Positions 4,451-59,296 of a stretch of 64,000 nucleotides of DNA are shown here, in pieces. Under the pieces are notes generated by a model, which was given only the letters and a program-made list of their open reading frames with translations, ran no database searches and had not been told where the DNA came from. Made by a program: the position numbers and the translations under genes. Numbering within the stretch: position 1 is the stretch's first letter; each line of letters begins with the position of its first letter. Origin of the DNA: Trichococcus shcherbakoviae (lineage in GTDB: Bacteria; Bacillota; Bacilli; Lactobacillales; Aerococcaceae); contig NZ_OY762653.1 in assembly GCF_963666195.1 (NCBI RefSeq), positions 868,001 through 932,000 of the forward strand, given 5' to 3'.

Positions 4451-4452
4451 CG

Positions 4453-5727: not shown

Positions 5728-5742
5728 CAACTGCATCCAAGC

Positions 5743-5772: not shown

Positions 5773-5779
5773 CGTTATT

Positions 5780-38041: not shown

Positions 38042-38045
38042 AAAA

Positions 38046-41184: not shown

Positions 41185-41201
41185 GCTGACTCCTCCGTTT
41201 A

Positions 41202-41215
41202 TGGTATCGATACCA
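41202..41215. promoter_or_regulatory. LacI-family operator upstream of the glucosidase gene
   Basis: TGGTATCGATACCA is a perfect 14-bp palindrome placed 18 bp before the glucosidase start, between it and the regulator gene. A variant copy is at 42262. Confidence 0.85.
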
Positions 41216-41239
41216 CATTTTTGTTTTTTGAGAACCCGC

Positions 41240-42238
41240 CTAAGCGGATTCCCGTTTGATCAATTCTAATTTCAGTTCTTTCGTATCTATCTGATAAGCA
41301 GTCTCTTCGATCTGCGCTACCAACACCTTCGTGGCTTCTCTTCCCAATGCATCGACCGGTTGCGCAATCGTCGTCAACTTGACCGCAAGCATCGCCGTGA
41401 ACGGCTGATTGTCGAAGCCCATGATCGCCAAATCTTCGGGAACTTTCTTCCCTGCCTCCAGGAACTTCTGCAGAATGCCGCTGGCCACTTCATCGCTGCC
41501 TGTAAAGATCGCATCCGGGCGGTTGCTTGCCGGCAAGCTCAAAATGTTCTCGGCAATCTGATGGCCATCCGCGATGGTATGGACCTCCTTGAAGATCCAA
41601 TCTTTCTTCATCGGAAGTCGACTTTCCAAAAGCGCCCTCTCGAATCCCGCTGTCCGGGCATTTCCGTGGCCGCCCTTTGTCAGGCTGCCGCCCGTGCAGT
41701 AGGCGATTTTTTTGTAGCCTTTCCCGATCAGGTAGTTTGTGGCTTCAAAAGTTGCCTGCTCCTGATCCGTATAGACTTGCGGAATCGTCGAACCTGGGAT
41801 CCTTTCGTTGCAGAAAACGATGGGTCCGTACTCTTGATACGTTTCGATCACATCGGGATTGCCTTCTACTGAGCACATGATCAAACCTGTGATCACCTGC
41901 TGTTTCAGCATTTCCAGCATCTTCAGCTCGGCCGCCGGATCATCGTAGGTCTGCATGACCAACACGTTGTAGCCCAAATGCTTGCTGTTCTTCTCGATCG
42001 AATCCACCAGGTAGGAGAAGAATGGATTCGTTATGCGCGAAACCAGGATCCCGATCATGGTGCCTTTTTTGGAGCGCAGTTGTGTCGCCACCATGCTGGG
42101 CGAATAGTTCAATTCATCCATCGCGGCTTTGATGCGTTTCTTCTTCTCATCGGAAATATAAGGATGATCGTTCAGATACCGGGATACTGTTGAAACAGAC
42201 AGCCCGGCCTTTTTCGCAACGTCCTTGATCGTCGCCAT
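41240..42238 (-). CDS. LacI-family transcriptional regulator of the alpha-glucoside operon
   Basis: A 332-residue LacI/GalR repressor. The N-terminal helix-turn-helix is TIKDVAKKAGLSVSTVSRYLN at residues 3-23, with the hinge motif LNYSPSMVATQLRSKKGTMIGIL near 49-70. The rest is a periplasmic-binding-like sensor domain, with a DAIFTGSDEVASGIL motif near 230. It should bind the TGGTATCGATACCA-type operators before the glucosidase gene and in its own promoter, with a sugar phosphate as inducer. ATG 42238 follows AAGGAG. Confidence 0.93.
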   Translation of the reverse strand: MATIKDVAKKAGLSVSTVSRYLNDHPYISDEKKKRIKAAMDELNYSPSMVATQLRSKKGTMIGILVSRITNPFFSYLVDSIEKNSKHLGYNVLVMQTYDDPAAELKMLEMLKQQVITGLIMCSVEGNPDVIETYQEYGPIVFCNERIPGSTIPQVYTDQEQATFEATNYLIGKGYKKIAYCTGGSLTKGGHGNARTAGFERALLESRLPMKKDWIFKEVHTIADGHQIAENILSLPASNRPDAIFTGSDEVASGILQKFLEAGKKVPEDLAIMGFDNQPFTAMLAVKLTTIAQPVDALGREATKVLVAQIEETAYQIDTKELKLELIKRESA

Positions 42239-42261
42239 GCGAATCACTCCTTTCATGTTTG

Positions 42262-42275
42262 TGGTATCGATTTCA
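42262..42275. promoter_or_regulatory. LacI-family operator in the regulator's own promoter
   Basis: TGGTATCGATTTCA shares the first ten bases with the perfect operator at 41202. It lies just downstream of the regulator's -10, so autorepression is likely. Confidence 0.75.
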
Positions 42276-42282
42276 TAAACAG

Positions 42283-42311
42283 AGTATAATGGAACCGATT
42301 CCGAAAGTCAA
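42283..42311 (-). promoter_or_regulatory. Promoter of the LacI-type regulator gene
   Basis: On the minus strand TTGACT (42311-42306), exactly 17 bp, TATACT (42288-42283). Confidence 0.8.
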
Positions 42312-42352
42312 CTGCGATTTTGGAATTTTTTTGTTTTTATGCTGTAGGCTCC

Positions 42353-42398
42353 AAAAAGAGGAACGGGAGCAGTCCAGAGATGCTCCCGTTCCTCTTTT
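42353..42398 (-). terminator. Strong hairpin terminator downstream of the SDR fragment
   Basis: AAAAGAGGAACGGGAGCA / TGCTCCCGTTCCTCTTTT is a perfect 18-bp stem. It probably ended the SDR gene of which only a fragment is left at 42447. Confidence 0.85.
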
Positions 42399-42446
42399 GC
42401 AATTTTAGTCAAAAATCGATTAGATATCTTGCATCTGCAAGTCCAA

Positions 42447-42530
42447 TTAAAGGTCAATCACATCGCCGCCGCCACACCATAAATCTTGGCAATCACGTAG
42501 CTGGCATTGTTGGATTCCAGGAAGACCTAC
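42447..42530 (-). pseudogene. C-terminal fragment of a duplicated SDR gene
   Basis: The minus strand reads VFLESNNASYVIAKIYGV and then, after a one-base frameshift, GGDVIDL and a stop. The intact SDR at 52285 ends VFLASNNASYVTAQIYGVTGGDVIDL. Only about 28 codons remain; everything upstream is lost. The rest of 42531-43019 holds no supportable gene, only AT-rich sequence with a stray ribosome site. Confidence 0.88.
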
Positions 42531-43019
42531 CCAAGTCCTTTTCATTCCACAATACAACGGATACCCTTCAACGACCACCATCATCCCGATTATTGCCCAT
42601 TGTGTCTACATTGTTTCCTCTTTCCAAAATCGCAACGCAAACCGACACGACATTATCACCTCCTGCTCATCGAATGAAACATCCATATCCAAATTCCTTC
42701 CGAAATAAAATCCTCCACCAATAAGTTAGAACCGTCCCCATGAAAGTTCCTTCCCGTTTTTTTGCAGAACCGAGAAGTTTATAAGATTACCTTTACTATG
42801 GGCCCATCAGCTGTTTCATGCACTTTTGTGGAACTGCACCCAACTTCTTTTAGCCCTAAATTAGTTCTTATTTTACATAGAAATACGCCCTATCTGAAAT
42901 ATTTAACACTCCAGTGATGTTTTAGTATCAGGAGCAATTAATAACTTGAAATTACAAAAGGCTCCTTCGTGATATAATCAATACAAATCAGATATTGTTA
43001 TTTGAAGGTGGAATGACTT

Positions 43020-43439
43020 ATGAAACATAAAAAGTTAAAGACTATACCAGAAACTTCTAAAAGAATGGCAAATGTTCATCTGAAAGGTGGAAAAGCTGAG
43101 ATCCTGCTTGCAAAATCACTATGGAATAATGGAGTACGCTACCGTAAAAATTATAAGATACTGCCTGGTTCTCCTGATATTGCTATCACCAAATATAAAA
43201 TCGCCATTTTTGTTGATGGTGAGTTCTGGCGTGGCGAAAATTGGGGTTATCGAAAAAAACGACTCAATAGAAATCGTTATTATTGGATTGAAAAGATAGA
43301 AGAGAACATAGCACGTGATAAAAGAAATGATTTACTTCTACTTAATCTAGGATGGACTCCTCTACACTTTTGGGAAAAACAGGTCATCAAACAGCTTGAT
43401 GATTGCATAGCTATAATCATGAATGAAATCTATAAATAG
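43020..43439 (+). CDS. vsr: Very short patch repair endonuclease Vsr
   Basis: A 139-residue mismatch endonuclease. Vsr nicks T:G mismatches left by deamination of 5-methylcytosine. Family features are TSKRMANVHLKGGKAEILLAKSLW near the N-terminus, with the metal Glu in GKAEILL, YRKNYKILPGSPDIAI with the catalytic Asp, IAIFVDGEFWRGENW with the conserved FVDG-FWHG-type motif, and a late LGWTPLHFWE segment. The usual CFWHGH is altered to E-FWRGE, a possible loss of zinc ligands. Start ATG 43020 follows GAAGGTGGAATG. It sits next to a Sau3AI-type R-M system whose methyltransferase makes 5-methylcytosine. Confidence 0.88.
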   Translation: MKHKKLKTIPETSKRMANVHLKGGKAEILLAKSLWNNGVRYRKNYKILPGSPDIAITKYKIAIFVDGEFWRGENWGYRKKRLNRNRYYWIEKIEENIARDKRNDLLLLNLGWTPLHFWEKQVIKQLDDCIAIIMNEIYK

Positions 43440-43482
43440 ACCGCTAATCTAAAACAATTCAGTTATTTATCAAAGAAGTTGA

Positions 43483-45030
43483 TTACTCAAAAAATTCTTG
43501 CACTTGATAATACATATAATCTCGGTTCAACCACCATGCTTGTTTTGTCATGTACTCATCTGATAATTCATTGACAACCATTTCGGCTGGTTTTCTCCCT
43601 TCCTCCCAATCAGTGGACTCAGGCCGATTTATCCAATTAGACTTAGCTGGCAATTTCATGGCGTAGCGAGGATCGTCATAATAGCATGCAACTTTAGCAG
43701 AAGGGCGAACATGCAATATTTCTCCTGAAGACATCCCTGGTAAGTCATTGGTCACTTCATACAATTTACCAGTTTTTGTGGGTTTATTTAGTTTTTTATA
43801 TTCTAATCGAACACCCTTCATGAGTTTATCTCTTGCCTCTTCCCAAGTCTGCTTTATCTCACCTTCTAAATCATCGTATGGGACATGCCAAAATTTTGCA
43901 CCTCTGAAATAGACGCCCTCTGTTGTCCTTTCAAAAATGACTAACAAAAATTGATAAGATGAGAGGTATTCCCTTAAAGAAGATTCCTCCCATTTCTCAT
44001 TATATAATTTCGCAGGATCAATCACGCTTTGTCCTGGAATAATGATTTTAAAACCCTCAGTTGTCTTTTTATTAGCGGCATCGACAGTAACGATTTTCAC
44101 AGATATATCTGCTTTTTTGAATTCTTCGGTGTCTTCTATATCGCCCTGCAGATTCAACATTTTTTTGGCCAATACTGCTGAACTAGCTTTATCATCCTTT
44201 TTCGGGATATCGACACCCAATTTTTTGGCCAAGTCCACCTTAGTCTTCCCGATGTGGGGCTTGAATTTTTCTAAAACGATGTCTTCAAATAATTTAACTT
44301 CTAGCTCATCGATATCTTCAATAATTTTTTCTTCACAATAGTGTTCACCAGCCATCACTTTACGAGCAACTTCACTCATATACGCTCCTTTCAATGTAAA
44401 AGAACGTCTATGGGCTTTTTTGTCACTAAAAGGCTGCGAGGTCATATTTTTTTCTGTTTTTGAACCTTTAGTTGTTGCTCCAAGATATTTTGTCAAACTA
44501 TCTGATAACTCTTCAGCTTTACCTTCTTTGATTTTGTTCACTATGATTTCCCAGTCTTGCTTAATAATCAGAATATCTTCTTTAGGTAATTTTTTTAAAT
44601 CGAAAAGAGTTGCAGCTGTTATAAAGAATTCTGGACCTATTTTTCCCTTTATATATTCATAATATATAAGCTCAATCAGATTTGCTTTCTCAATGAATGA
44701 TGAACGCTCGAAGTCTCTCTTATATTCATCCTTAAAATCGAAAATATTTAAAACTAGACGTTCTTTGGCACTCCATCCATTTCTGGTATTTCTTATTGGA
44801 GTAACTTTTATCTCTAACCCAAGATACGGTATGTCCGCTTCATGTCTTGAATTATTTGGAATACCGAACCAATCTCTTTCGATAGCATTCCCTATCCAGC
44901 CTTTATTGTCAGGCTTGTCAAAATACTTTTGAAGTGTCGTCTCTGTGACTAAACTTTTGACTAGTTTTCCAATTGCATCCTGTGCATGACTATGAACTTC
45001 CTCTACTGAACTCCATTTTTTTTCTTCCAT
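43483..45030 (-). CDS. Sau3AI-type restriction endonuclease (GATC, tandem MutH-like domains)
   Basis: A 515-residue enzyme strongly resembling Sau3AI. It has two MutH-like domains: an N-terminal catalytic one with ADIPYLGLEIKVTPI near residue 72 (D..ExK) and ERLVLNIFDF near 95, and a C-terminal one. Shared landmarks are EYIKGKIGPEFFI, EIIVNKIKEGKAEELSDSLTKYLGATTKG, RSFTLKGAYM, VLEKFKPHIGK, LHVRPSAK and NWINRPESTDW. Sau3AI cleaves GATC unless the C is methylated. ATG 45030 follows GGGAGG. It diverges from the adjacent cytosine methyltransferase gene. Confidence 0.92.
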   Translation of the reverse strand: MEEKKWSSVEEVHSHAQDAIGKLVKSLVTETTLQKYFDKPDNKGWIGNAIERDWFGIPNNSRHEADIPYLGLEIKVTPIRNTRNGWSAKERLVLNIFDFKDEYKRDFERSSFIEKANLIELIYYEYIKGKIGPEFFITAATLFDLKKLPKEDILIIKQDWEIIVNKIKEGKAEELSDSLTKYLGATTKGSKTEKNMTSQPFSDKKAHRRSFTLKGAYMSEVARKVMAGEHYCEEKIIEDIDELEVKLFEDIVLEKFKPHIGKTKVDLAKKLGVDIPKKDDKASSAVLAKKMLNLQGDIEDTEEFKKADISVKIVTVDAANKKTTEGFKIIIPGQSVIDPAKLYNEKWEESSLREYLSSYQFLLVIFERTTEGVYFRGAKFWHVPYDDLEGEIKQTWEEARDKLMKGVRLEYKKLNKPTKTGKLYEVTNDLPGMSSGEILHVRPSAKVACYYDDPRYAMKLPAKSNWINRPESTDWEEGRKPAEMVVNELSDEYMTKQAWWLNRDYMYYQVQEFFE

Positions 45031-45115
45031 ACATGAGCCTCCCAAAAAAGTTTGCAGTTCTTACTCTCATAAATTGAATTGAATTGAATTGAATAGCGGA
45101 TTATATATTGTAGAT

Positions 45116-45147
45116 AATGTTATAATCATCACTATGATTATAACATT
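45116..45147. promoter_or_regulatory. Palindromic operator between the Sau3AI-like and methyltransferase genes
   Basis: AATGTTATAATCAT-CACT-ATGATTATAACATT, perfect 14-bp arms around 4 bases. A tandem TTGAA repeat (about 45074-45094) lies beside it toward the endonuclease gene. Position suggests a binding site that balances the divergent genes. Confidence 0.65.
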
Positions 45148-45161
45148 TTAAGAATTCGATC

Positions 45162-45190
45162 TTGATCTTTTTTAGATTTTGGTGTATAAT
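45162..45190 (+). promoter_or_regulatory. Promoter of the GATC cytosine methyltransferase gene, with GATC in the -35
   Basis: TTGATC (45162-45167), 17 bp, TATAAT (45185-45190). GATC occurs at 45158-45161 and again inside the -35 at 45164-45167, so methylation by the gene's own product could change polymerase binding. Confidence 0.75.
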
Positions 45191-45221
45191 ATCGATAGCA
45201 AATCGAAAGGATGTTCTCTTA

Positions 45222-46517
45222 ATGACAAAAAAATTAAAAGTCTTGGAACTTTTCGCTGGCGTTGGGGGCTTCAGAGTTGGTTTAGAAAATGCTGATTCCA
45301 ATGTTTTTGAAACAAAGTGGGCAAACCAATGGGAGCCTTCTAGAAAAACTCAAGATGCTTTTGAAGTATATGATTATCACTTCCCGAATAGCATAAATAT
45401 TAATGAAAATATTGAAGAAATTCCTAATGAAGTCTTTGAAAAAATGGACGCAGATATCATAGTGGGAGGATTTCCTTGCCAAGACTATTCTGTTGCTCGA
45501 AGCAAGAAACATGAAATGGGACTTGAAGGTAAGAAAGGGGTTTTATTTTGGGAAATTATCCGAGCGACTAACCATATCAGACCCAAATATCTTATTTTAG
45601 AGAACGTTGATCGCTTGTTAAAATCCCCCTCTAAGCAGAGAGGGCGAGACTTTGCTATTATGCTGGCCTCTTTCAATGAACTTGGCTATTCTGTGGAATG
45701 GCGTGTTATTAATGCAGCCGAGTACGGAAGAAGCCAGAGAAGGCGTAGAGTATTCTTCTTTGTTTACCGGAATGACACTGATTTTGCTCACAATATTGAT
45801 AATAAGTTCGAGTCGAATGAGCCAAATATCTTATTTGATGAGCATTTATATGATGACTATATTTTCAATAAGGGGCTTTTTGCGAGACAATTTCCTGTTC
45901 AAAAAAAACCCTATAAGAATCGTCAAGCATCCCATGAACTGTCTGATGACATAGTTGAAGTATCTGATAATTTTACGGGAACTGTTTGGAATACTGGAAT
46001 AATGCGACATGGAAGATACTTTACTATTGATACAGAACCTACCGGTGATGAGAAACCTATAACTCTAGGTGAAATAATTCAAGCTGAAAATGAAATAGAT
46101 GACAAATACTTTCTAACAGACCTCAGTAGAATTAAAAAATTTGAATACTTACGTGGTCCTAAAAAAATTGAAAGAACCTCTATAGAAGGCCATACATATA
46201 CATTTTCTGAAGGTAGTATGTCCCCATTTGACGATTTATCTATGCCAGGAAGAACTATGTTGACTTCTGAAGGATCTATCAACCGTTCAACCCATTTATT
46301 GAAGATAAATGGGCGTTATCGATTAATAACACCTATAGAGGCTGAAAGACTTCAGGATTTCCCAGATGACTGGACGAAGTACAAAAAAATATCTACTGGA
46401 GAAGTAGTAGATGTTTCTGATCGTATGCGTATGTTCTTTATGGGAAATGCACTTGTTACTGAGATAGTGAGAAGAATTGGAGAAGAGCTAATACAAATAA
46501 ATCTAGGACATAATTAG
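45222..46517 (+). CDS. DNA (cytosine-5-)methyltransferase of the Sau3AI-like R-M system
   Basis: A 431-residue C5 methyltransferase. Motif I LELFAGVGGFRVGL is near residue 8, motif IV GGFPCQDYSVA with the catalytic Cys near 92, motif VI LILENVDRLL near 128, motif VIII RRRRVFFFVY near 182, and motifs IX-X with ERLQDFPDDWT and FMGNALVTEIVRRIG at the end. It should protect GATC by making GATm5C, inferred from the neighbouring Sau3AI-type nuclease. ATG 45222 follows AAAGGATG at long spacing; the upstream in-frame region overlaps the promoter. A terminator follows. Confidence 0.92.
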   Translation: MTKKLKVLELFAGVGGFRVGLENADSNVFETKWANQWEPSRKTQDAFEVYDYHFPNSININENIEEIPNEVFEKMDADIIVGGFPCQDYSVARSKKHEMGLEGKKGVLFWEIIRATNHIRPKYLILENVDRLLKSPSKQRGRDFAIMLASFNELGYSVEWRVINAAEYGRSQRRRRVFFFVYRNDTDFAHNIDNKFESNEPNILFDEHLYDDYIFNKGLFARQFPVQKKPYKNRQASHELSDDIVEVSDNFTGTVWNTGIMRHGRYFTIDTEPTGDEKPITLGEIIQAENEIDDKYFLTDLSRIKKFEYLRGPKKIERTSIEGHTYTFSEGSMSPFDDLSMPGRTMLTSEGSINRSTHLLKINGRYRLITPIEAERLQDFPDDWTKYKKISTGEVVDVSDRMRMFFMGNALVTEIVRRIGEELIQINLGHN

Positions 46518-46528
46518 ATAAAGTTAAT

Positions 46529-46574
46529 AAAAAAAGGTTCCAATCACCAAATCGGGTGATTGGAACCTTTTTTG
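46529..46574 (+). terminator. Terminator of the GATC methyltransferase gene
   Basis: AAAAAAGGTTCCAATCACC / GGTGATTGGAACCTTTTTT, a near-perfect stem with T run. Confidence 0.92.
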
Positions 46575-46812
46575 TGGTAAAGTGCATATTCTGAACATCC
46601 GCCACAGGAAACCCTTGGACGGCTTATTTTGATGTTACAGTTAATGAGCGTAAATCCTGATTGAAATCTGACTGAATTATACCTTACCGGAAATTTATAA
46701 TGAAGATTTCGGAAAATGCCGGTAATATAAATGCCTTAAGAGATTTTAATCAATCCATCACGTTTGTTATAAATAATTTCGTATAAATGAAGCAAGAATC
46801 TAATTTTTTCAA

Positions 46813-46849
46813 TATTTTTGTTATTATTGTAACAATAATAACAAAAATA
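46813..46849. repeat. AT-rich 37-bp perfect palindrome
   Basis: TATTTTTGTTATTATTGT-A-ACAATAATAACAAAAATA has 18-bp arms around one base. It lies 24 bp after the stop of the REC-HEPN gene on the minus strand. It could fold into a terminator hairpin or serve as a protein site; there is no clean T run after it. The rest of 46575-46873 shows nothing else. Confidence 0.7.
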
Positions 46850-46873
46850 CTGAATGCATTTCTAAATAAAAAA

Positions 46874-47713
46874 TCAATGCCACTCATGTGGAAATGGACG
46901 ATTGGGATTTCTAATCAAAAAAATTATCTTTTTCTTTAAGTTCTTTAAGTCTAATCTGTACTTATCTAATTGATTTTCATAAATAATAATTTGTTCATTC
47001 AAAGCAGATTTTATATAGAAACCATTCTTAATATCATATCCTTCTAACGTATGAGCTAATAAATTTCTATATTCAATTAGTTCAGACCAATCCTCATATA
47101 TTTTTTTACTTCGTTTTAAATAAGCAGGAGTAGTTGATTTTTTTAACCGATAAAACAAATCCTTATATGTTTTATTTTCATCAAAGCATGAATACTTTTC
47201 TCTTAATAGTAGTTCTAATTCAGCATGTTCACACATATATAAACCTCTAATGGCATTTAATTCATCCCAACGACTAAGACTAATATCAACAGCTTTGGAA
47301 AATTCTTGTTTTATCATTTGAGGGGAGCTATTTGCTAAGGAAATAAATGTAAAATTACAAAATAATTCAATGTTATTTTCTTTTAACTTATCAATAACAC
47401 CATTACGAATTTCATTATATTCATTTTTAGAGTACAAAATAAAAAACTGCTTATATAGACCTTTTCTTCTTATTTCTAGCAAATATTCTAACCCAGTTTC
47501 ACCAACACCTAAATTATAATCAGAAATAAAGAAATCCACACGTCTTTCTGGATCTGACAACATTTGTTTAGCAGTTTCAAGTTCACTTATTTCTTCAATA
47601 TTACTATCGTAACCTTTCTTTTCAATTATTTCTCTAACTGATTTAATCTTGCTGGTATGTTCTCTATTCTTTAGGTTATCTTCTAGCCAAATAATTTCTA
47701 CTTTCCCTCTCAT
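46874..47713 (-). CDS. Receiver-domain protein with C-terminal HEPN-like domain
   Basis: A 279-residue two-domain protein. Residues 1-120 look like a response-regulator receiver: acidic WLEDN near 9, the phospho-acceptor candidate Asp in FFISDYNLG near 63, and a Ser/Lys end motif in FFILYSKNEYNEIR near 95. Residues about 145-265 are helical and contain EYRNLLAHTLEGY near 216, an R-N-x3-H motif of the kind that forms the active site of HEPN RNases. This would make it an RNase switched by phosphorylation, which is inference. Its ATG overlaps the stop of the GHKL gene, so the two are coupled. Confidence 0.72.
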   Translation of the reverse strand: MRGKVEIIWLEDNLKNREHTSKIKSVREIIEKKGYDSNIEEISELETAKQMLSDPERRVDFFISDYNLGVGETGLEYLLEIRRKGLYKQFFILYSKNEYNEIRNGVIDKLKENNIELFCNFTFISLANSSPQMIKQEFSKAVDISLSRWDELNAIRGLYMCEHAELELLLREKYSCFDENKTYKDLFYRLKKSTTPAYLKRSKKIYEDWSELIEYRNLLAHTLEGYDIKNGFYIKSALNEQIIIYENQLDKYRLDLKNLKKKIIFLIRNPNRPFPHEWH

Positions 47714-49797
47714 TTGTGCGCCCCCAGTTTAATTGTAAAGTCCGCAATACTCTTTTGAGACCTAGCAGAAATTGTCCAGCCAAAATCTTCGCAAATTTCC
47801 TTGGATAAATACATTCCTATCCCTGTACCATTCTTCTTACTACTAACTCCCAAATTAAAAATATTATCTATTGGTGTAATTTCAATTGGCCCGGTATCAG
47901 AAATGACGTGAAATTCGTTTTGAGCATCTGAAAATATCACTTCAATAAAACTAGCTTCTCTTTCAACAGCATTAGATACTAAATTATCCAGTAATACTCC
48001 TAATTCAAAAATCTCCACTTTAGCTAAATAGGAACTACTAGTAATTGCAATTTTTATATGGGTTCTTGATAAATGAATATTTTCGAAATAGCTTCTAAGA
48101 TAACCTTTTAAATCAATATTTTGTTTGCCTATGATATCATAATCATTTAGCTTCAAAAACTGTTGTTTTATTGTTGTTAATTTATCTGAACTTTTTTTCA
48201 AATCCGCCAAATAAGGAGCAATGCGAGTATATTCTTCAGTCCTAAAGAAATCTTCAGCCATATCGTCAATGACATAATCAATTTGATTACTAACTCCCGT
48301 TAGTTCATGAACTAATAAAGTTTGTCTTGTAGGATCACTTTCATTCAGTAAAATATCTTTCATTTTGTTTTGTGTACTTAAACTCATGTTTTCGTCTTTT
48401 AGACTTCTGTTCTCTACATTTAATCGCTGTGAATGCTCTTCCGCTGATTTCCTTGCCTTTCTCTCTTCTTCTTTAGCCTTCTGCTCTCTTTGTTTAGCTG
48501 CTTTTTGATTCTCTAATTCTTGTTCATATATAGCATCTGCTTCTCCTTTTATTACTTGCCTAATATTAATTCGTTCCCTAATAAGTTTATTAACAATAAT
48601 TTTTAGAATGTCAATTAAAAGTTGAACTCTTTCATCATCCTTAGACAATCCTTCTCGGCTAGTCGTGGAAATATCTGGTAATCTATCATCATCTAAAACA
48701 TCAAAAGATATTTCGCCCTCTATATAGTTTGAAAAAGCCTGATTATTATTCAAATATTCCAGGAAGTTCTCCACAGCTAGTTTATCCCTTACATAGAGCT
48801 TTAATCTGTTTGGGCTATAGACCTCATTTTTCATAAAACGAGTATCATTTAATCGAGCTTCATCAGAATTAATGGTAGCATGGATACCAATCCAACCCTT
48901 CAGCTCATATGGAACTTTTACCTCTCCCCCATCTAAGCCTATAAATTCTTTTTTCCCTTTAATTGCAAAATTCGATGATATAGTTTCCGGAGTCAAAAGA
49001 ATCACATTTCGCTTTTTATCATCTAACTCTACTATCCCACTATTTTTAATAGGTATAGCCGCACTCAACTCTTTGCTTTTTAAATTTTTCTCACTTTCAA
49101 AAAAAGCGTAGAAGTTCTTAAAGGCTACTTCTTTTGTTACTATTTGAAAATCAATGGTTTCATTTGAATTTGTGACATATGCAACTTCGATTCTCGCCCC
49201 TAATTCGTCCAACAGATAATAATCGGCAATTCTCCTCTTTAATCCATCTAATTTTTTTTCAGCAAAATTGGTCATATCAACATCAGTTAATTTAATGAGT
49301 GTTCCCTGACTATAGGTATCCCAAATCTTCTGACTTTCGAGTCTTACATTCTCAACATCAATTTTATCTAATTTTGGTAAATCAGAGTCCTTGACTTCTT
49401 TTGAATCCAAAACCCAAGCGGATTCTATTCCTTTATTTTTTGTAATAATATAGTACTTTTTAGAAAGAAACAGTCCTGCTAACTTTCCAACGCCTTTTCT
49501 GCCTTTTACCTTGTCAGATATTTCGCTATCTTCTTGTCTTTTGTTTCTCCCTATTAATGCATACTTATTTGCTAAGTCAAAGTAACTCATACCGCTACCA
49601 TTATCAAAAATTTCAATAGTAGATTTGTCTTTTATTGTAGAATTGATATAGATTCGAACTATCGAGGCATCAGCATCTAAACCATTCGCAACTAGTTCTG
49701 AAATAGCACTCCATTTATTTGTATACATTTGTTTCCCTAATAAGTTTAAAGCGTAATAAGAAAAATTAAAATATATTTCATTATTATTACTTTCCAT
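47710..49797 (-). CDS. Dual GHKL ATPase: MORC/Hsp90-like N-terminus plus histidine-kinase-like C-terminus
   Basis: A 695-residue protein with two GHKL modules. The first has the N-box SELVANGLDADAS near residue 33, DNGSGM near 65 and GRKGVGKLAG near 98, as in MutL/Hsp90/MORC proteins, followed by an S5-like region. A charged coiled coil (EQELENQKAAKQREQKAKEEE) leads to VHELTGVSNQID near 505, resembling a DHp phospho-acceptor helix, and then a histidine-kinase-type module: LLDNLVSNAVERE near 600, ISDTGPIE, and KKNGTGIGMYLSKEICEDFG. ATG 49797 follows GGGGAGG. Operon: methyltransferase, this, receiver-HEPN. Function inferred, probably defence. Confidence 0.8.
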   Translation of the reverse strand: MESNNNEIYFNFSYYALNLLGKQMYTNKWSAISELVANGLDADASIVRIYINSTIKDKSTIEIFDNGSGMSYFDLANKYALIGRNKRQEDSEISDKVKGRKGVGKLAGLFLSKKYYIITKNKGIESAWVLDSKEVKDSDLPKLDKIDVENVRLESQKIWDTYSQGTLIKLTDVDMTNFAEKKLDGLKRRIADYYLLDELGARIEVAYVTNSNETIDFQIVTKEVAFKNFYAFFESEKNLKSKELSAAIPIKNSGIVELDDKKRNVILLTPETISSNFAIKGKKEFIGLDGGEVKVPYELKGWIGIHATINSDEARLNDTRFMKNEVYSPNRLKLYVRDKLAVENFLEYLNNNQAFSNYIEGEISFDVLDDDRLPDISTTSREGLSKDDERVQLLIDILKIIVNKLIRERINIRQVIKGEADAIYEQELENQKAAKQREQKAKEEERKARKSAEEHSQRLNVENRSLKDENMSLSTQNKMKDILLNESDPTRQTLLVHELTGVSNQIDYVIDDMAEDFFRTEEYTRIAPYLADLKKSSDKLTTIKQQFLKLNDYDIIGKQNIDLKGYLRSYFENIHLSRTHIKIAITSSSYLAKVEIFELGVLLDNLVSNAVEREASFIEVIFSDAQNEFHVISDTGPIEITPIDNIFNLGVSSKKNGTGIGMYLSKEICEDFGWTISARSQKSIADFTIKLGAHK

Positions 49798-49821
49798 TTT
49801 TCCTCCCCGTGAACAGTTATG

Positions 49822-50985
49822 TCAAAAATTATCAAAGAAAGACGTTAATTTCTGTGCAATTGCCATAGCCAAAAGCGGGGGGACAGCATTGCCAATTTGA
49901 CTATTTATGTTTTCTTTATTCCCAATAAAATGAAATGTATCAGGAAATGATTGTATTCTTGCACCTTCTCTGGGTGTTAGTGCTCTGTTTTGAATAGGAT
50001 GAATACATCTTAATGAAGAAGGTGTCGACAAATTGTTTGTAATTGTTGAACTTGGTCTGTCCCACCATAGTTTCCCATAAGTATTGTGATATCCGGAAGT
50101 TAAAAAATATTTTTCATCTAACTTTCCTGCTTCAACAAGTTCATTAATATAATTTTTCCCTTTTCCGGGAGTAACAGTCTTCATAATTTTCAACATTCTT
50201 TCTCCATTTAAGCCATTAACATGATGCGTTAATTCAACCGAATTATTTCTCATCAATTTTTGATAAAAAGTATATGGATTACTTTCGTAATATCCCTTTT
50301 TTTCTCCATTGCCTAATTCAGGCAAATCGCCTATGGCATCTTCCAAAGTTAAAAACTCATCTTCTGAAATAAGTTCTGCATCTGGAAACTCCCAATTGAA
50401 TTCACTCTCTAAGTCTCTTCGCATCCCTACTAAAAATACTCTTTCTCTATTTTGTGGAACACCAAAATGTTTGGCGTTCATTACACTTTCTTTAATCTCA
50501 TAAGATAAGTTAATGCCAAAATCAGAAAAATCGCTGAATTCATATTTTATGTCCTCGAGTACAGGTAAGCCTTCAGCATTCTTCATAGTCATAAGCCCTG
50601 TTACATTTTCAAAAAGAAATACCTTTGGTTGCAAAAAAGACAACATTCTTCGGTATTCCTTGTACATCTGGGCTCTCTCATCGTATTGTCGTCTTCCAAC
50701 AGTACTAAATGATTGACATGGGGGCCCTCCAATTACTAAATCAACATCGGAATATTCAATATTATTTTCAACTAAATAGTTTTGTGTTATCTGCGTTATA
50801 CTACAGTTCAACATTGGAATTTGCGGAAAGTTTAACGAAAAGGCATCAGATGCATTCTTATCTATCTCATTAGCAAATAGAATGTTATAGTCGTCAGATT
50901 TCACAAAAGTATCGTTGAGAATCTTATTTTTAAAACCTAGAGTTAACCCGCCAGCTCCTGAAAATAAGTCAACTACTCTAATCAT
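49822..50985 (-). CDS. DNA (cytosine-5-)methyltransferase, second
   Basis: A 387-residue C5 methyltransferase. Motif I VVDLFSGAGGLTLGF at residues 4-18, motif IV GGPPCQSFSTVGRR with the catalytic Cys near 90, motif VI LFENVTGL near 128, motif VIII GVPQNRERVFLVGM near 173, and final motifs TPREGARIQSFPD and IGNAVPPLLAMAIAQ. Target unknown. No restriction nuclease gene adjoins it; instead it heads a three-gene operon with the dual GHKL protein and the receiver-HEPN protein, 24 bp and then four-base overlap. ATG 50985 follows AGGAGG. The base composition is low GC, like the rest of the island. Confidence 0.9.
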   Translation of the reverse strand: MIRVVDLFSGAGGLTLGFKNKILNDTFVKSDDYNILFANEIDKNASDAFSLNFPQIPMLNCSITQITQNYLVENNIEYSDVDLVIGGPPCQSFSTVGRRQYDERAQMYKEYRRMLSFLQPKVFLFENVTGLMTMKNAEGLPVLEDIKYEFSDFSDFGINLSYEIKESVMNAKHFGVPQNRERVFLVGMRRDLESEFNWEFPDAELISEDEFLTLEDAIGDLPELGNGEKKGYYESNPYTFYQKLMRNNSVELTHHVNGLNGERMLKIMKTVTPGKGKNYINELVEAGKLDEKYFLTSGYHNTYGKLWWDRPSSTITNNLSTPSSLRCIHPIQNRALTPREGARIQSFPDTFHFIGNKENINSQIGNAVPPLLAMAIAQKLTSFFDNF

Positions 50986-51269
50986 CTATAAGCCTCCTAA
51001 AGTTTCTATTACTATAGATTTTAACAAAATTTAGATAAAATTGATACAAATTTATTAGTGTAACATGATTCGAATACTGAATCATGAATAAAGAAAGCGC
51101 AGAATAAATAAAAAAAAAGCCACTTTTTTGAATGAAATCCTCCAATTATAATAAACAGACTTTTATAAAAAATTTAGAATTATGAATTCCTGAGAGATTT
51201 TTTTCAATCTATTTTAACAGGTTGCTCTGATTACCACATCACACTTTCCATCGCAGGAACAACAACCCT

Positions 51270-51840
51270 CTAACTTCTTCTCTGCCCTCTTTGGTAAGAA
51301 TGATTGTACACTTCGAAATTAATGTCGCGAAGGTCTTCCACTGCCTCAGCTAACAAGTTGATGTTGCGGATAAGCGCTCTGCCTTGCAGGATTAGGTCTG
51401 CTTGGTTGGTTTGCAGGATTTGTTCGCACAAGCCAGGATTGTCCAATAGGCCGACCACGGATACCGGAATCGAAACGGCTTCTTTCATCGCGGTGGTGTA
51501 AGGGACTTGATAGCCTGGGCGGACGGGGATGTTCGGTTTCTTGTCAAGAAGCCCTCCTGAGGAAACATCGATGCAATCGATGCCGTCTTTTTCAAGCCAT
51601 TTCCCGATTATTTTCCAATCTTTCAAGCTATTTTGTTTTTTCTGAATCAGCGTATGCTGTCAGGGATAATCTGATCCATAAGGAACCTTTGAAGGAGCCG
51701 CGTATTTGCTCGATGATTTCTTTTGCAAACAGGTAACGGTTTTCTAGCGAACCGGCGTATGCATCCGTCCGTTCGTTGGTCAGTGGGGGCAAAAATTGAT
51801 TGATCAGATAACCGTGCGCGCCATGCAGCTGAATCCTCAT
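51270..51840 (-). pseudogene. Truncated, frameshifted copy of the Old Yellow Enzyme gene
   Basis: The minus strand encodes the last ~190 residues of an NADH:flavin oxidoreductase, in two frames broken near 51627: HGAHGYLINQFLPPLTNERT...ADSEK, then KDWKIIGKWLEKDG...RGQRRS. The intact paralogue at 58256 matches both halves closely (HGAHGYLINQFLSPLTNERT and DDWKIIGKWLEKDG). The N-terminal half, which carries the start and part of the FMN site, is missing, so it is non-functional. Confidence 0.93.
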
Positions 51841-51963
51841 AAGTCATGAATATTTATTGGTTGGCAAACCGAATATATTCTGACACTTAGTGAGAATTTT
51901 TTTACACTGACGGAGGCTATCCGAAACCATGGGCCTTGTCCATGATTTTCATTTCCACAAAAT

Positions 51964-51995
51964 AAAAACTCTATCCCTTTTGATGTGGATAGAGC
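51964..51995 (-). terminator. Hairpin terminator
   Basis: On the minus strand CTCTATCC ... GGATAGAG followed by TTTTTATTTT, downstream of the hydrophobic relic. Confidence 0.7.
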
Positions 51996-52180
51996 ATGTA
52001 ATACGCCAGTTTTTTAAAAAATTGGACTTATTTTTTATGATCCTTCTGTTCCAAATCAGGTAGAGGACGAATGCAGTCAAGACAATGACAATCGGCAAAG
52101 CCACAAACAGCGGTGTGCTTTCTTGCTAATGGGCTACAGCATACCGCTGGATACCGCCGTTAAGCGCATAAGTAAAGACG

Positions 52181-52220
52181 AAAAAAAAGGACAAGAGCAC
52201 CTGGCTGCTCTCGTCCTTCT
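52181..52220 (-). terminator. Terminator of the SDR gene
   Basis: On the minus strand AAGGACGAGAGCAGCCAGGTGCTCTTGTCCTTTTTTTT in outline: AAGGAC-GAGAGCA stem with TGCTCT-GTCCTT and a T run. Confidence 0.88.
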
Positions 52221-52284
52221 TCTTGTTTTGAAATTACTTTTTCTGTACAGTGTCTTCAACAATTTCCGATCGATGATTCAGAAA

Positions 52285-53178
52285 TCACAAATCGATTACG
52301 TCGCCACCGGTCACGCCATAGATTTGGGCGGTCACATAGCTGGCGTTGTTGGATGCCAGGAAGACATAGACATGCGCCAGTTCGACCGGCTGTCCCGCCC
52401 TACCCAACAAGGTTTTTTGCCCGAATTCCGGCAAAGCACCTTCCGGTTGTCCTTGGTCCAGTTGCAACGGTGTCCAGATTGGACCCGGCGCCACGCCGTT
52501 CACGCGGATGCCTTTCTTGGCGAATTGTTTCGCCAAACTGATCGTGAAGCTAGCAATCGCTGACTTGGTTGCAGCATAATCCATCAAATGAGGGCTGGGA
52601 TCGTAAGCCTGGATTGAGGTTGTCGTGATGATTGCGCCTCCCGCCGGCAGATGTGGTTCAGCAGCTTTCACCAGTCCGAACATCGAAATGATGTTGACGG
52701 TGAAAGTGTCTTTGACTTGTTCCAACGGCAACTCCGAAATGGACTCCCGCGCGATCTGTTGGGCGGCATTCAATACAAGTGTATCCAATCCACCTAGTTC
52801 TTTGACGGTTTTATCGATTATTTCTTGGTACTTGGATTCATCGCGAAGGTCGTATGGAAGCAATACAGCCTTCCTGCCGGCCTTCTCTATATATTCGGCG
52901 ACTTCTTCTGCATCGCGTTCTTCGCCAGGGAAAAATTGGATCGCCACATCGGCGCCTTCTCTGGCATAAGCTATCGCAGCCGCCCGGCCGATTCCGGAAT
53001 CCCCACCAGTGATCAATACACGGCGATTCTCCAACAGGTGGTTGCCCACATAGCTTTCCTCCCCGCAATCGGGTTCCGGCAGCATCTTAGCTTGCAAAGC
53101 TGGGGTGTCTTGATCCTGATCTGCAAATTTTCCAGTGTGATACAACTCTCTTGGATCCTTCAAAATAGGTTCAGTCAT
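52285..53178 (-). CDS. SDR oxidoreductase (YhdF/glucose dehydrogenase-like)
   Basis: A 297-residue SDR of the group with a long N-terminal lead that contains LPEPDCGEESYVGN, as in the YhdF/YhxC stress-linked dehydrogenases. The cofactor motif is ITGGDSGIGRAAAIAYAREGADVA near residue 55, the NAAQQ structural motif near 135, and catalytic YAATKSAIASF near 205. C-terminal SYVTAQIYGVTGGDVIDL is typical. ATG 53178 follows AAGGAG. A broken copy of its 3' end lies at 42447, so this locus was duplicated. It lies between the two defence islands. Confidence 0.92.
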   Translation of the reverse strand: MTEPILKDPRELYHTGKFADQDQDTPALQAKMLPEPDCGEESYVGNHLLENRRVLITGGDSGIGRAAAIAYAREGADVAIQFFPGEERDAEEVAEYIEKAGRKAVLLPYDLRDESKYQEIIDKTVKELGGLDTLVLNAAQQIARESISELPLEQVKDTFTVNIISMFGLVKAAEPHLPAGGAIITTTSIQAYDPSPHLMDYAATKSAIASFTISLAKQFAKKGIRVNGVAPGPIWTPLQLDQGQPEGALPEFGQKTLLGRAGQPVELAHVYVFLASNNASYVTAQIYGVTGGDVIDL

Positions 53179-53366
53179 CTAAATCACTCCTTTTCCTTTG
53201 TAATAATAGTCTAATACACTTACTTACAATTTGGAAATGATAAACCTCCGCGGACAGACACCACTTAGTCAGATGAATCTTACATTGAAAGATTTACCCC
53301 TCTTATGAAACCAAATATTCTATCTCTTTTGTCGCTCTTTATCTATTCTTTAGACTTAATCATTAA

Positions 53367-54428
53367 CTATTTAAAACCCTTATTCACCCTAAGAAAAGAT
53401 TTTTCAGCAAGTTTTAATAGCTGTTCAGTTATTTGCGTAAATGGTTGATCCAAATCAATAACATCAATTACGACACTCTGTCCTTTTATCCAGTAACTAT
53501 GATTTGGCTGATATTCATCTGAGGTTTTTGCATATAAAATCATACCACCAACATTTGCGTCTGTTATCATGCTCCAGTTATTTAGATACGCAAACATCTG
53601 ATAAAGATTACTGCTTAACTGCTTATACTCAGCACCTTCAAAACTCTGCGCCATATTTTTTGAATAAAATTTAGTATCAATAATCAGAGTACTTTTTCCA
53701 TCTCTTAAGACGATATCCGTTTGCATTTTGGGTAAGGCAGATGTGTATCCATCACTAACTAGCCAATTAATTTGGTTATGCGTGACAGTGTATGGAGATT
53801 CTCTCCTGTAAAATTCATAAACAAATTTCTCATACAACGCAGAGAGTTTCCGATTATCATTAACGCTTTTTCGTAAAAAATCATCTTGGCTTTCATCAAT
53901 TAAAATCTGCTCAAATGCATAACGGCATATATCCACCATAAAATTATAGCGAATATTTTGTTTCGAATATATGATTCCGTCCCAAAGCCTCAAATCCAAT
54001 TGAACATCAGAGACATCCGCAAAATAAGGCAACAGCGAGGATATTTTCTTTCGTATTGGTGTGCTAACTCTCTTTTGACTGCGAAAATTTTCAAGTGTCG
54101 CTTTTATGATTTGATTCAACAAATTGTCCTCTGAAAACTGGTCATAAGATACTATCAATTTTTTTCGTATCAATGAATTGCTCTTAATCGTATCTGATAA
54201 GTTTATCTTACCGCGAACAACTCCACTTTGTTCAGTAAAAACCCTGTACTCTTTTAGCAACCCGGCACGAATCAAAGAAGGAACACCCAAAGATAAGATA
54301 GTAGCATAAAGTTCAAGAACATTCTCAAATTCTTCTTCTCCAACTCGCTTGAACTCTTGAAATTTTAAGGAATCATGTGTATAGGCCAGCATGTAATAAA
54401 TATTACGAATGGGAATTTTACTCTTCAT
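53367..54428 (-). CDS. mcrC: McrC-type 5-methylcytosine restriction subunit (nuclease)
   Basis: A 353-residue McrC. The N-terminus IPIRNIYYMLAYTHDSL is typical, as is the long helical middle part with LIRAGLLKEYRVFTEQSGVVRGKINL. The PD-(D/E)xK nuclease core is visible as LPKMQTDIVLRDG near residue 245 and TLIIDTKFYSKNM near 260, giving D and D-x-K. McrC binds the McrB hexamer and cleaves DNA between methylated sites. Its start overlaps the mcrB stop by 11 bases. The gene ends in an AT-rich stretch without a clear terminator. Confidence 0.9.
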   Translation of the reverse strand: MKSKIPIRNIYYMLAYTHDSLKFQEFKRVGEEEFENVLELYATILSLGVPSLIRAGLLKEYRVFTEQSGVVRGKINLSDTIKSNSLIRKKLIVSYDQFSEDNLLNQIIKATLENFRSQKRVSTPIRKKISSLLPYFADVSDVQLDLRLWDGIIYSKQNIRYNFMVDICRYAFEQILIDESQDDFLRKSVNDNRKLSALYEKFVYEFYRRESPYTVTHNQINWLVSDGYTSALPKMQTDIVLRDGKSTLIIDTKFYSKNMAQSFEGAEYKQLSSNLYQMFAYLNNWSMITDANVGGMILYAKTSDEYQPNHSYWIKGQSVVIDVIDLDQPFTQITEQLLKLAEKSFLRVNKGFK

Positions 54429-56529
54429 AGTTCATACTCGACTGTAAGTTAATTATCCACTGCTTTGCTTTTTCGGGATCATCAAACCAGAACTCCATTA
54501 ATTGGGGGCCGATTTCATAATCTATCACTTCTTTCAGACGTTGATTTGTGCTTATCTTATAGGCATCATCAACGAAATAGCTATGTCCTATCTCAAATCC
54601 GGAACCCAATTCATTCCTTATATCCTTATTAAGTTGTTTTACAGTTCCTATTACTTGGCGAAACTCGCTTGAATTATCCAACGAAGAGACGAATCGTTCA
54701 AATCCCATTGAATCAAACGCGGGTACGACATCCACAAAGGCAAATCGTCTGCGCAATGCATAATCCAATAACGCCAAGCTTCGGTCTGCCGTATTCATCA
54801 TACCGATGATGTAAAGATTTTCAGGCACAGAAAATGGCTCATTTGAATACAAAAGATTTATGGACTTGCCTCTTTTATCAGACTCAATCAGCATCATTAA
54901 TTCTCCAAAAACTTTGCTCATGTTCCCTCGATTGATTTCATCTATAATGAAAAAATAGTCACGGTCTTTATCCTCGCTTGCTTTTCGCGCAAATTTAACA
55001 AAAGGACCTGTCTTTCTCTCAAAGCCGTCACCATCTTCTTTAGGACGAAATCCCTCAATGAAGTCTTCATAACTATAGCTTTGATGGAATTGGACAAACT
55101 GGAGACGACTATCATCTTTTGATCCCATCATTGAATAGGCTAGGCGATCTGCCATAAACGTTTTCCCTACACCAGGCGCTCCTTTCAAGATAAGATTTTT
55201 CTTGTTTTGAAGCAACGAAACCAGTCGATCATATCCTTTTTCGTCGATAAAAACATCATTAAGAAATTCTCTTTTAGTGTACGCTTCAATCTCTTCCTTC
55301 ACTACAGGACGAGATTCCAAATATCGCAAATAATAATCAAATGAACTTGTGATTACAACGCGATTATTTTGAGTGTCTCTATTTTTTAGCATTTCATCTC
55401 TTAAATCTTCCAGCATATTTGGATCGCTTTCCCCGAAGATGCCCTTACCAAGTATCTTCTCAGCCTCAACAAGTGCATTCACTCTACTGCGTACGCTTTT
55501 TTCATCCATCACTTCACCGGAAGGTAACTTCTGATTGGCCAACCAAAGCTCAAATTGTTTTATAAATTTCGTCTTCTCATCCGGTATTTCTTCACCATTG
55601 ATGAGACGCTCTGCATAATCAATCCAATCTGTGGACTGATTGAATTTGGTTAATGTCTTTTGAGCAATGGCATCCCGTAGATCCCATTCTCCTTTGTTTG
55701 TCCAATCGACTGTCCTTCGATGTTTATAGGAATTTGATGAATTGTCAAAATAGTAATCACTGGTCACTATGCCCCGACCTACAATTCTTTTTGTTCCTTT
55801 CTTGACATAGACGACATCCCCGATTTGAACATCATGTAAAAATTCCCAAACAGCCTTAGAGTCATTTTTCGGATGAATCCCATCACCCCGAATCTCTCTC
55901 ATTTTCGCCTCTATGCTTTCACGAGTTGAATAGTCCGCCAAATTACCGAGATAATCCCATCCTAAACCCATTACTGCAGAATTATAGAATTCCTCCCACA
56001 TTAAAGATTGTTCACCCGCGGAAAATATCCAATAGTTGATGCTGTCGTCTACAATACCTTCTTGCGTTTTAATTTTTTCATTTTTCTTTGGGTACATTAA
56101 CTGCGGGTTTTCATGATAATACAAAAATCTGAGATATGCGCGGCAAATAGTACCCAAACTAGGTATTCCCCCAAAATTTTCAGGTTTACTCCGCTCGCCT
56201 TTTTCAAAAGTATGCTGCGCAAATTTTTGAGTGAAATCTTTTATTTTCAAAACGCTCTCTTTAGGGTAACGCAAATTTTTTCCGTTAATTATCAGTTCGA
56301 CACTTATATCTGATTCCCCAAATATTTTTCTGTAAACTGATTCGAATTCTTGATAAGTACCATAATAAAAAAAGTTCTCCTTTAAATCATCTGTATCTTC
56401 AAATTCGAATTTTTTCAGCAGCTCACCAATTCTTTCTAAGTAAGGGGCATACCAAAGACCTGTTTTTTCCCCCAAGTTTTCTGCTGACCACTCTTTAAAA
56501 TCATCAATTCTTTTTTGAACGTCATCCAC
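54418..56529 (-). CDS. mcrB: McrB-type AAA+ GTPase with EVE-like domain
   Basis: A 703-residue McrB. The C-terminal AAA+ motor has Walker A LKGAPGVGKTFMADRL near residue 450, Walker B FFIIDEINRGNMSKVFGELM near 525 and the MNTADRSLALLDYALRRRF segment near 580, the McrB signature for GTP use. Before it, YWIFSAGEQSLMWEEF to RIVGRGIVTSDYYF (about 170-275) looks like a PUA/EVE domain that could read a modified base. The first ~140 residues are an unidentified domain. Initiation is GTG 56529 with GGGAG upstream. Partner of McrC in one operon. Confidence 0.9.
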   Translation of the reverse strand: MDDVQKRIDDFKEWSAENLGEKTGLWYAPYLERIGELLKKFEFEDTDDLKENFFYYGTYQEFESVYRKIFGESDISVELIINGKNLRYPKESVLKIKDFTQKFAQHTFEKGERSKPENFGGIPSLGTICRAYLRFLYYHENPQLMYPKKNEKIKTQEGIVDDSINYWIFSAGEQSLMWEEFYNSAVMGLGWDYLGNLADYSTRESIEAKMREIRGDGIHPKNDSKAVWEFLHDVQIGDVVYVKKGTKRIVGRGIVTSDYYFDNSSNSYKHRRTVDWTNKGEWDLRDAIAQKTLTKFNQSTDWIDYAERLINGEEIPDEKTKFIKQFELWLANQKLPSGEVMDEKSVRSRVNALVEAEKILGKGIFGESDPNMLEDLRDEMLKNRDTQNNRVVITSSFDYYLRYLESRPVVKEEIEAYTKREFLNDVFIDEKGYDRLVSLLQNKKNLILKGAPGVGKTFMADRLAYSMMGSKDDSRLQFVQFHQSYSYEDFIEGFRPKEDGDGFERKTGPFVKFARKASEDKDRDYFFIIDEINRGNMSKVFGELMMLIESDKRGKSINLLYSNEPFSVPENLYIIGMMNTADRSLALLDYALRRRFAFVDVVPAFDSMGFERFVSSLDNSSEFRQVIGTVKQLNKDIRNELGSGFEIGHSYFVDDAYKISTNQRLKEVIDYEIGPQLMEFWFDDPEKAKQWIINLQSSMNYEE

Positions 56530-58255: not shown

Positions 58256-59296
58256 TTATTTCCTTCGTTGCCCTCTTTGGTATGAATGATTGTACACTTC
58301 GAAATTAGTGTCGTGAAGTTCTTCAGCAGCATCCGCTAACCAGTTTACGTTGCGGATGAGGGCTCTGCCTTGCAGGATCAGGTCCGCTTGGTTGGTTTGC
58401 AGGATGTGTTCGCACAAGCCCGGATTGTCCAGCAGGCCGACCGCGGTAACCGGGATTGAAACTGCCTCTTTCATCGCAGTGGTGTAAGGGACTTGATAGC
58501 CTGGACGGACGGGGATGTTCGGTTTCTTATCAAGAAGTCCGCCTGTGGAAACATCGATGCAATCGATGCCGTCTTTTTCAAGCCATTTGCCGATTATTTT
58601 CCAATCATCAAGGCTGTGCTGCTTCTCTGAATCATCATATGCAGTCAAGGATAACCTAATCCATAAGGAGCCTTTGAAGGAACCGCGTATTTGTTCGGTG
58701 ATTTCATTTGCGAACAAATAACGGTTTTCCAATGAACCGCCGTATGCATCCGTCCGTTCATTGGTCAACGGGGACAAAAATTGATTGATCAGATAGCCGT
58801 GCGCGCCATGCAGCTCGATCATATCGACCCCAGCAAATGCGGCACGTTCTGCAGCCGCCACAAAGGACGCTTGGACACGCTTGATTTCTTCTCTGGTCAT
58901 TTCGTTGGGCCTCCCGTATTCATTGCTGAATGGGATGGCGCTGGGTGCGATCATGTAATCGGCATTCTCCGCTTTGCGGCCTGCATGCCCAAGTTGGATG
59001 CCTACTTTGCTTCCCAATGAATGGAGCATATCCACCAAACGCTTCAGTTCCAGCGCCTGATCATCGTTCCATAGGCCCAGATCCCGGTTGCTGATCCGTC
59101 CATCTGGTTCCACGCCGGTTGCTTCAATAATGATCAAGCCAGCCTTAGCGATTGCACGGGCGCCGTAATGGGCAAAATGGAAAGGAGCAAGCACACCGTC
59201 CTCTTTTTCGACTTCGAACATGCACATCGGAGCCAAAACCACCCGATTGCTCAAGGATAAGCCGGCTACTTCTGTTGGTGACAATAATAATGACAT
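58256..59296 (-). CDS. Old Yellow Enzyme family NADH:flavin oxidoreductase (YqjM/NamA type)
   Basis: A 346-residue FMN enzyme that reduces activated alkenes with NADPH. The opening SLLLSPTEVAGLSLSNRVVLAPMCMF has the Cys26-type residue typical of the thermophilic-like YqjM subgroup. Others are IQLGHAGRKA near 103, active-site HGAHGYLINQFLSPLTNERTD near 172 and the FMN-phosphate motif NQADLILQGRALIRN near 310. ATG 59296 follows GAGGAG; the longer reading is not supported. It is last in the MarR/nitroreductase operon. A broken paralogue is at 51270. Confidence 0.93.
   Translation of the reverse strand: MSLLLSPTEVAGLSLSNRVVLAPMCMFEVEKEDGVLAPFHFAHYGARAIAKAGLIIIEATGVEPDGRISNRDLGLWNDDQALELKRLVDMLHSLGSKVGIQLGHAGRKAENADYMIAPSAIPFSNEYGRPNEMTREEIKRVQASFVAAAERAAFAGVDMIELHGAHGYLINQFLSPLTNERTDAYGGSLENRYLFANEITEQIRGSFKGSLWIRLSLTAYDDSEKQHSLDDWKIIGKWLEKDGIDCIDVSTGGLLDKKPNIPVRPGYQVPYTTAMKEAVSIPVTAVGLLDNPGLCEHILQTNQADLILQGRALIRNVNWLADAAEELHDTNFEVYNHSYQRGQRRK

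Follow-up and report, generated by a model that had tools for sequence, protein, structure and literature searches.

Two-component-like elements tied to C5-cytosine DNA methyltransferases (C5 methylases) and paraMORC ATPases were described in 2021, with their output domain left unassigned (PMC8011034). Here we describe a related three-gene element of Trichococcus shcherbakoviae, found in a 64,000-bp stretch of contig NZ_OY762653.1 (positions 868,001 to 932,000; this whole stretch is referred to below as the window, and coordinates are counted from its first base). The trio encodes a C5 methylase, a two-headed GHKL ATPase/histidine kinase, and a regulator in which a receiver is followed by a helical domain that is likely, but not proven, to be HEPN. 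With modest confidence, we favor the view that it is a methylation-linked, stand-alone defense cassette that would resemble a restriction-modification (R-M) system with the nuclease step replaced by a phosphorelay to an abortive HEPN RNase.

The 2021 systems resemble the trio in having a C5 methylase upstream, a protein with the HATPase_c_3 domain, a His-bearing helical region, and the HATPase_c domain, an adjoining regulator-like gene, and R-M neighborhoods. The regulators differ in size: those of the trios are ~270 to 325 amino acids (aa) long and end in the HEPN-like domain, whereas the 2021 query protein has 600 aa (PMC8011034). The first-pass annotation of this DNA, made from the sequence alone, knew of no named system with this gene order, a claim that has to be withdrawn, since the general layout was already in print in 2021. 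The layout itself is thus known, and what is new here is the HEPN-like output and the exchange of modules. The Pfam family PF19192 (Response_reg_2) has no match in the window regulator at E ≤ 1, and PF19191 (HEF_HK) has none in the window kinase or in the kinases of three related loci (L035, L036, and L079). Because the window proteins match neither family, we view the trio as a sister lineage of the 2021 systems. The regulator of one more relative, L103, matches PF19192 at 0.0025, which is under the cut-off; a PF19192 search of 61 relatives returned no match, and its controls gave none either.

ParaMORCs in R-M operons carry swappable C-terminal effectors (Iyer et al. 2008, PMC2292703). Their GHKL ATPases, in which an S5 domain comes after the GHKL domain, adjoin DNA methylases; the comparison covered the GHKL domain and the R-M neighborhood, both of which the trio has. 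ParaMORC ends are nuclease or TIR domains, whereas the effector of the trio would be reached via the kinase and a separate protein, and the paraMORC paper makes no mention of receivers. A link between a GHKL ATPase and a HEPN RNase in R-M neighborhoods is also seen in the paraMORC-Ymh(HEPN) proteins (Anantharaman et al. 2013, PMC3710099), which are direct fusions without a histidine kinase or a receiver. The BbrUII/HgiDII restriction enzymes (NF050001) have the same type of N-terminal GHKL module, and the methylases of that family are also C5 methylases (PMC5867850); the C-terminal half of the trio kinase is a histidine kinase core instead. At least in a legend of the 2026 DefensePredictor report, HATPase and receiver domains appear among predicted, unvalidated systems (PMC13092281). 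Neither the regulator nor the kinase had a Detocs-named match in the PADLOC library, the Detocs content of which was unchecked. Detocs, which consists of DtcA, DtcB, and DtcC, is a two-component defense system in which a kinase and a response regulator lead to a self-harming effector; compared by architecture, it differs from the trio in the absence of a methylase and of a GHKL front end and in the nature of its effector.

Gene organization and distribution of the trio

All three genes lie on the minus strand. The methylase gene (49822..50985; 387 aa) comes first and is followed by the kinase gene (47710..49797; 695 aa) and the regulator gene (46874..47713; 279 aa), which is translationally coupled to the kinase gene. 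All three are genuine, complete genes, and their open reading frames (ORFs) lie exactly where the first-pass annotation put them, tightly packed with a 24-bp gap and then a 4-bp overlap. Good ribosome-binding sequences precede the methylase (AGGAGG) and the kinase (GGGGAGG). A terminator-like hairpin past the regulator (46530 to 46573) is a weak signal, as 1 was found and 1.8 were expected by chance.

The regulator is present in a single copy in the 2.93-Mb genome that contains the window and in 7 of 398 further genomes of the order, all 7 of which encode the trio; the other searched genomes of the genus do not have it. A scan of genome contigs revealed further trios in Turicibacter and Streptococcus, several of these loci coming from the same genomes as in the order-wide search. 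Alignments of the kinase and the regulator reached viral (prophage-type) contigs that encode a GHKL-kinase beside a receiver protein ending in an RNxxxH motif (L063, L064, L065, L066, L069, L073, L074, L076, L079, L084, L087, L101, L105, L108, and L109, as well as L103, whose contig begins at the regulator). In these contigs, a C5 methylase adjoins the kinase-regulator pair unless the contig stops. Searches of plasmids and viral contigs with the window regulator or a close alignment returned no close homologue, three prophage regulators used as queries found nothing in plasmids or phages, and one prophage regulator found only itself in viral contigs. Across 399 phylum genomes, a regulator profile found just two receiver matches, both weak and neither accompanied by the trio.

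From the window, Streptococcus, Turicibacter, and the prophage-type contigs we tabulated 27 full-length trios, a number that overstates the independent cases, because some entries are nearly identical (e.g., L029, L040, L043, and L044). The gap between the kinase and regulator genes ranges from −11 to +6 bp in all of them, and a methylase stands beside the pair in 26. Of these methylases, that of L035, at a contig start, is partial, and those of several prophages are encoded on the opposite strand; in the remaining case, L066, the contig stops with the regulator. Contrary to one scenario raised at the first pass, in which homologues of the three genes never co-occur, the genes were together wherever the trio was found.

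Identity to the window regulator falls to 16 to 20% in most prophage members. Nevertheless, the kinases invariantly contain His497, the GHKL residues E34, N38, D65, G67, G99, and G102, and the core residues N605, N609, G657, and G659, and the regulators invariantly contain D12 and D65 of the receiver and R216, N217, and H221 of the end domain. Because the same residues are retained in all 27 trios at regulator identities down to ~16%, chance can be ruled out as the source of these motifs. We see in such conservation a strong argument that the trios make use of both ATP sites, of the phosphorelay, and of the RNase-type motif.

The methylase and the two-headed kinase

The assignment of the first gene to the C5 methylases holds, with a match to the Pfam DNA_methylase family at 3.6e-68. 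Two GHKL modules had also been read in the second protein, and Pfam finds both: HATPase_c_3 in residues 28 to 149 (8.9e-23; 49351..49716, minus strand), which is the proposed sensor half, and the catalytic HATPase_c domain in residues 600 to 690 (3.2e-15; 47728..48000, minus strand). The phospho-acceptor suggested at the first pass lies in a VHELTG motif that is indeed present and contains the candidate His497 (48307..48309, minus strand). At its N terminus, the kinase is related to the BbrUII/HgiDII enzymes through their GHKL part (1.6e-47), with the best stretch limited to residues 14 to 193 and a score of 162 bits against a full-length cut-off of 550. In one prophage-type locus (L064:2836-6819), the kinase gene is interrupted by an ORF on the opposite strand, probably an inserted element.

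The receiver and HEPN-like domains of the regulator

The regulator has no assigned Pfam family, and its matches to “Imm71” and other Pfam entries were taken as chance. An AlphaFold model built from 13 relatives (mean predicted local distance difference test score [pLDDT], 82.7) has a receiver fold in residues 1 to 127 (47333..47713, minus strand), with the (βα)5 topology, the acidic pair E11/D12, and the phospho-acceptor D65, the candidate phosphorylation site (47519..47521, minus strand) within the SDYNLG motif that had been singled out as receiver-like. Foldseek retrieves CheY/PhoB-type receivers with the regulator model (template modeling score to target, ≤0.72), and a profile search of solved sequences matches CheY at 1.4e-4, so that the receiver-like nature of the N terminus, which the first-pass annotation had left refutable, stands. 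Searches of the regulator turned up no DNA-binding domain.

The end domain (residues 128 to 279; 46877..47332, minus strand), modeled alone, is a confidently predicted helical domain (pLDDT, 90.4). It contains the RNLLAH motif (R216, N217, and H221; 47051..47068, minus strand), which in the model occupies the end of a helix, ahead of a β-hairpin and the last helix; the motif of HEPN RNases is likewise placed at a helix end (PMC3710099). Two features of the HEPN superfamily are found here, namely, an R-x4-6-H motif in which the Arg precedes a polar residue and a helical bundle with the motif at a helix end ahead of the last helix. When 18 domains of this kind were compared to Pfam, the top five families were HEPN_RiboL-PSP, DUF4145, HepT-like, HEPN_MAE_28990, and HEPN_Apea, all of which are HEPN-type, DUF4145 being counted as HEPN in PMC3710099. 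In addition, the L063 end domain has an NCBIfam match to the HepT toxin, and L079 and L109 match the PADLOC models Cas13-ApeA and RTasHEPN. In profile-profile comparison with HEPN_RiboL-PSP, represented by family members drawn from genomes, the end domain scored 30.4, while the controls reached at most 13.9 (100 column shuffles), 10.2 (reversed profile), and 19.2 (other domains of the same proteins); an earlier comparison with this family under other options was weaker than this local run. A search of solved sequences with the end-domain profile found no HEPN protein. The R-N-x3-H motif (YRNLLAH) pointed out at the first pass is thus present, and the relatives have weak matches, from three libraries, to HEPN-type families. 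In the L036 and L038 regulators the receiver halves are nearly identical and the HEPN halves differ, which suggests recombination within the regulator gene.

Exchange of modules between trios

The trios of Lactobacillales contain two kinds of methylase, type A and type B, and a distinct kind of GHKL half goes with each. Compared to L043 (type A), the window proteins are 58% identical in the methylase, 60% in the GHKL half, 53% in the middle region, 38% in the kinase core, 44% in the receiver, and 34% in the HEPN-like domain; the respective values for L037 (type B) are 32, 26, 18, 38, 46, and 39%. The kinase core and the regulator are therefore about equally close to both types, whereas the methylase and the GHKL half are not. 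Pairwise distances are correlated at 0.92 to 0.99 among the methylase, the GHKL half, and the middle region and at 0.90 to 0.99 among the kinase core, the receiver, and the HEPN-like domain, as opposed to 0.65 to 0.85 between the two blocs.

On the tree of the GHKL half, a split supported by 100/100 unites type B with the prophage-type loci L063, L065, and L073, and a single Lactobacillales clade is rejected by the approximately unbiased (AU) test (p ~1e-5). Conversely, a group of type B plus these prophages is rejected for the kinase core (p = 0.002) and for the regulator (p = 0.006). A clade of all type-A trios is neither shown nor rejected on the kinase-core or regulator trees. These tests reject a single shared history for the modules, and we read the pattern as an exchange of a specificity bloc (methylase and GHKL half) against a signaling-effector bloc (kinase core, receiver, and HEPN-like domain). 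Such swapping is in keeping with, but no proof of, a sensor role in which the GHKL half would read the mark made by the methylase.

Genomic setting

The trio lies within a segment of low GC content (42421..51268; ~30 to 39%, compared to ~50% in its surroundings). A genome of the same genus, G380 (locus L093), aligns to the window at 36630 to 42420 and 51269 to 53247 but lacks the segment between them, which is therefore most simply seen as an insertion. The same segment carries a Sau3AI-type restriction enzyme (NF040973; 432.9 bits, above the cut-off), which adjoins the trio and is encoded at 43020 to 46517 along with a Vsr endonuclease and a C5 methylase of its own. The first-pass statement that no nuclease accompanies the methylase accordingly holds for the operon and fails for its immediate surroundings. 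With an McrB/McrC-like pair at 53367 to 56529, restriction systems are clustered in the flank of the trio. Part of an NADH:flavin oxidoreductase gene region occurs twice, at 51277 to 51835 and 58263 to 58820 (87 to 88% identity, ~7 kb apart), and the two copies flank the McrBC stretch. No separate nuclease was recognized beside the trio in at least four streptococcal loci (L025, L041, L042, and L043), in which the ORFs were read by eye.

Related loci with other outputs

Several loci have a GHKL protein in other company. Two-gene cassettes, one in Listeria (L048, positions 2889 to 5884) and the other in L051, consist of a C5 methylase and a GHKL protein with an end that is TIR-like by eye, and the GHKL protein of L052 and its relatives seemingly ends, also by eye, in a nuclease domain. 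L046, L071, and L080 combine a GHKL-kinase with a short receiver-like protein and an HNH nuclease gene, in what is a sister layout of the trio, and L046 has an Eco57I-type methylase in place of the C5 methylase. In L054, a gene that looks by eye like an A/G-glycosylase separates the C5 methylase from the GHKL-kinase. Judging from the TIR-like and nuclease-like ends and the HNH loci, different effectors appear to be coupled to the GHKL front end, either directly or by phosphorelay.

In four prophage-type loci, a PNKP-type phosphatase gene directly follows the regulator (L065:9404-9859, L076:9377-9829, L101:6976-7419, and L105:6934-7374). HEPN RNases leave products with 2′,3′-cyclic phosphate ends (PMC3710099), and a PNKP-type enzyme could process the phosphate-ended RNA breaks made by a HEPN RNase, an analogy that is suggestive only.

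Proposed mechanism and alternative explanations

In the defense cassette proposed here, the C5 methylase would mark host DNA at one sequence, and the GHKL half of the kinase would serve as an ATP-driven clamp on, or sensor of, that sequence when it is unmarked. Sensing would switch the C-terminal kinase core to autophosphorylation on His497, from which the phosphate would pass to Asp65 of the receiver; the phosphorylated receiver would release the HEPN domain, which would then cut cellular RNA and cause a growth stop or abortive infection. We infer which signal comes from the DNA and which way the switch works, as well as the RNase activity, its RNA target, and the role of the trio in phage defense.

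Several points weigh against this scheme. The sign of the regulation, i.e., whether the phosphate turns the output on or off, is not readable from sequence. The Pfam and NCBIfam HEPN matches of the relatives are all under the curated cut-offs, the end domain of the window regulator has no HEPN match when taken alone, so that the case is built on its relatives, and Foldseek, run on solved structures with the isolated end domain, retrieved no HEPN protein (best E, 0.68). Apart from this negative structure search, which bears on the possibility, allowed for at the first pass, that the C terminus is not HEPN, none of the outcomes that would have refuted the first-pass reading was obtained. The methylase tree tracks the GHKL half weakly, with an AU value of 0.045 against a single Lactobacillales clade. 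Finally, the absence of nucleases from the streptococcal loci was judged from ORF reading, short of a full scan.

According to the speculation of 2021, the kinase-regulator pair could regulate neighboring R-M genes, in which case the end domain might be a HEPN fold that has lost catalysis and serves in binding or dimerization. R-M genes are frequently close by (PMC8011034), as are the Sau3AI-type system and McrBC in the window. We consider this explanation unlikely, given that the Arg, Asn, and His of the motif are invariant while the rest of the end domain drifts to ~15% identity, that several streptococcal trios have no other recognized R-M gene alongside, and that no DNA-binding domain turned up in the regulator. 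To a similar degree improbable, in our view, is a selfish addiction module, in which the methylase would quiet the sensor, loss of the cassette would kill through the HEPN RNase, and phage defense would be secondary. Its anatomy would be identical to that of the defense cassette, many copies reside in prophage-type contigs, and the trio sits within an inserted segment; defense is compatible with these observations too, and ordinary R-M systems combine both. A third alternative, in which the GHKL-kinase protein would itself cut DNA as a BbrUII/HgiDII-type restriction enzyme and the regulator would only modulate it, would agree with the N-terminal similarity of the protein to that family and with the C5 methylases the two have in common, but is very improbable for a protein that falls so far below the family cut-off and has a histidine kinase core as its C-terminal half.

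Implications

Under the preferred reading as a defense cassette, the trio may, tentatively, exemplify a widely distributed kind of restriction whereby unmethylated DNA would trigger a His-Asp phosphorelay to a HEPN RNase, with swappable specificity and signaling blocs, and the HEPN-like domain would be the missing output of the 2021 systems. The 2021 report left the function of the methylase-linked, two-component-like pairs open for want of a recognized output domain (PMC8011034). The RNase-type motif and the exchange of blocs make the question testable: does unmethylated DNA fire an RNA-cutting phosphorelay? If so, restriction can work by signaling to an RNase rather than by DNA cleavage, and the bacterial relatives of GHKL/MORC ATPases would act as sensors linked to methylation, whose outputs can be interchanged.

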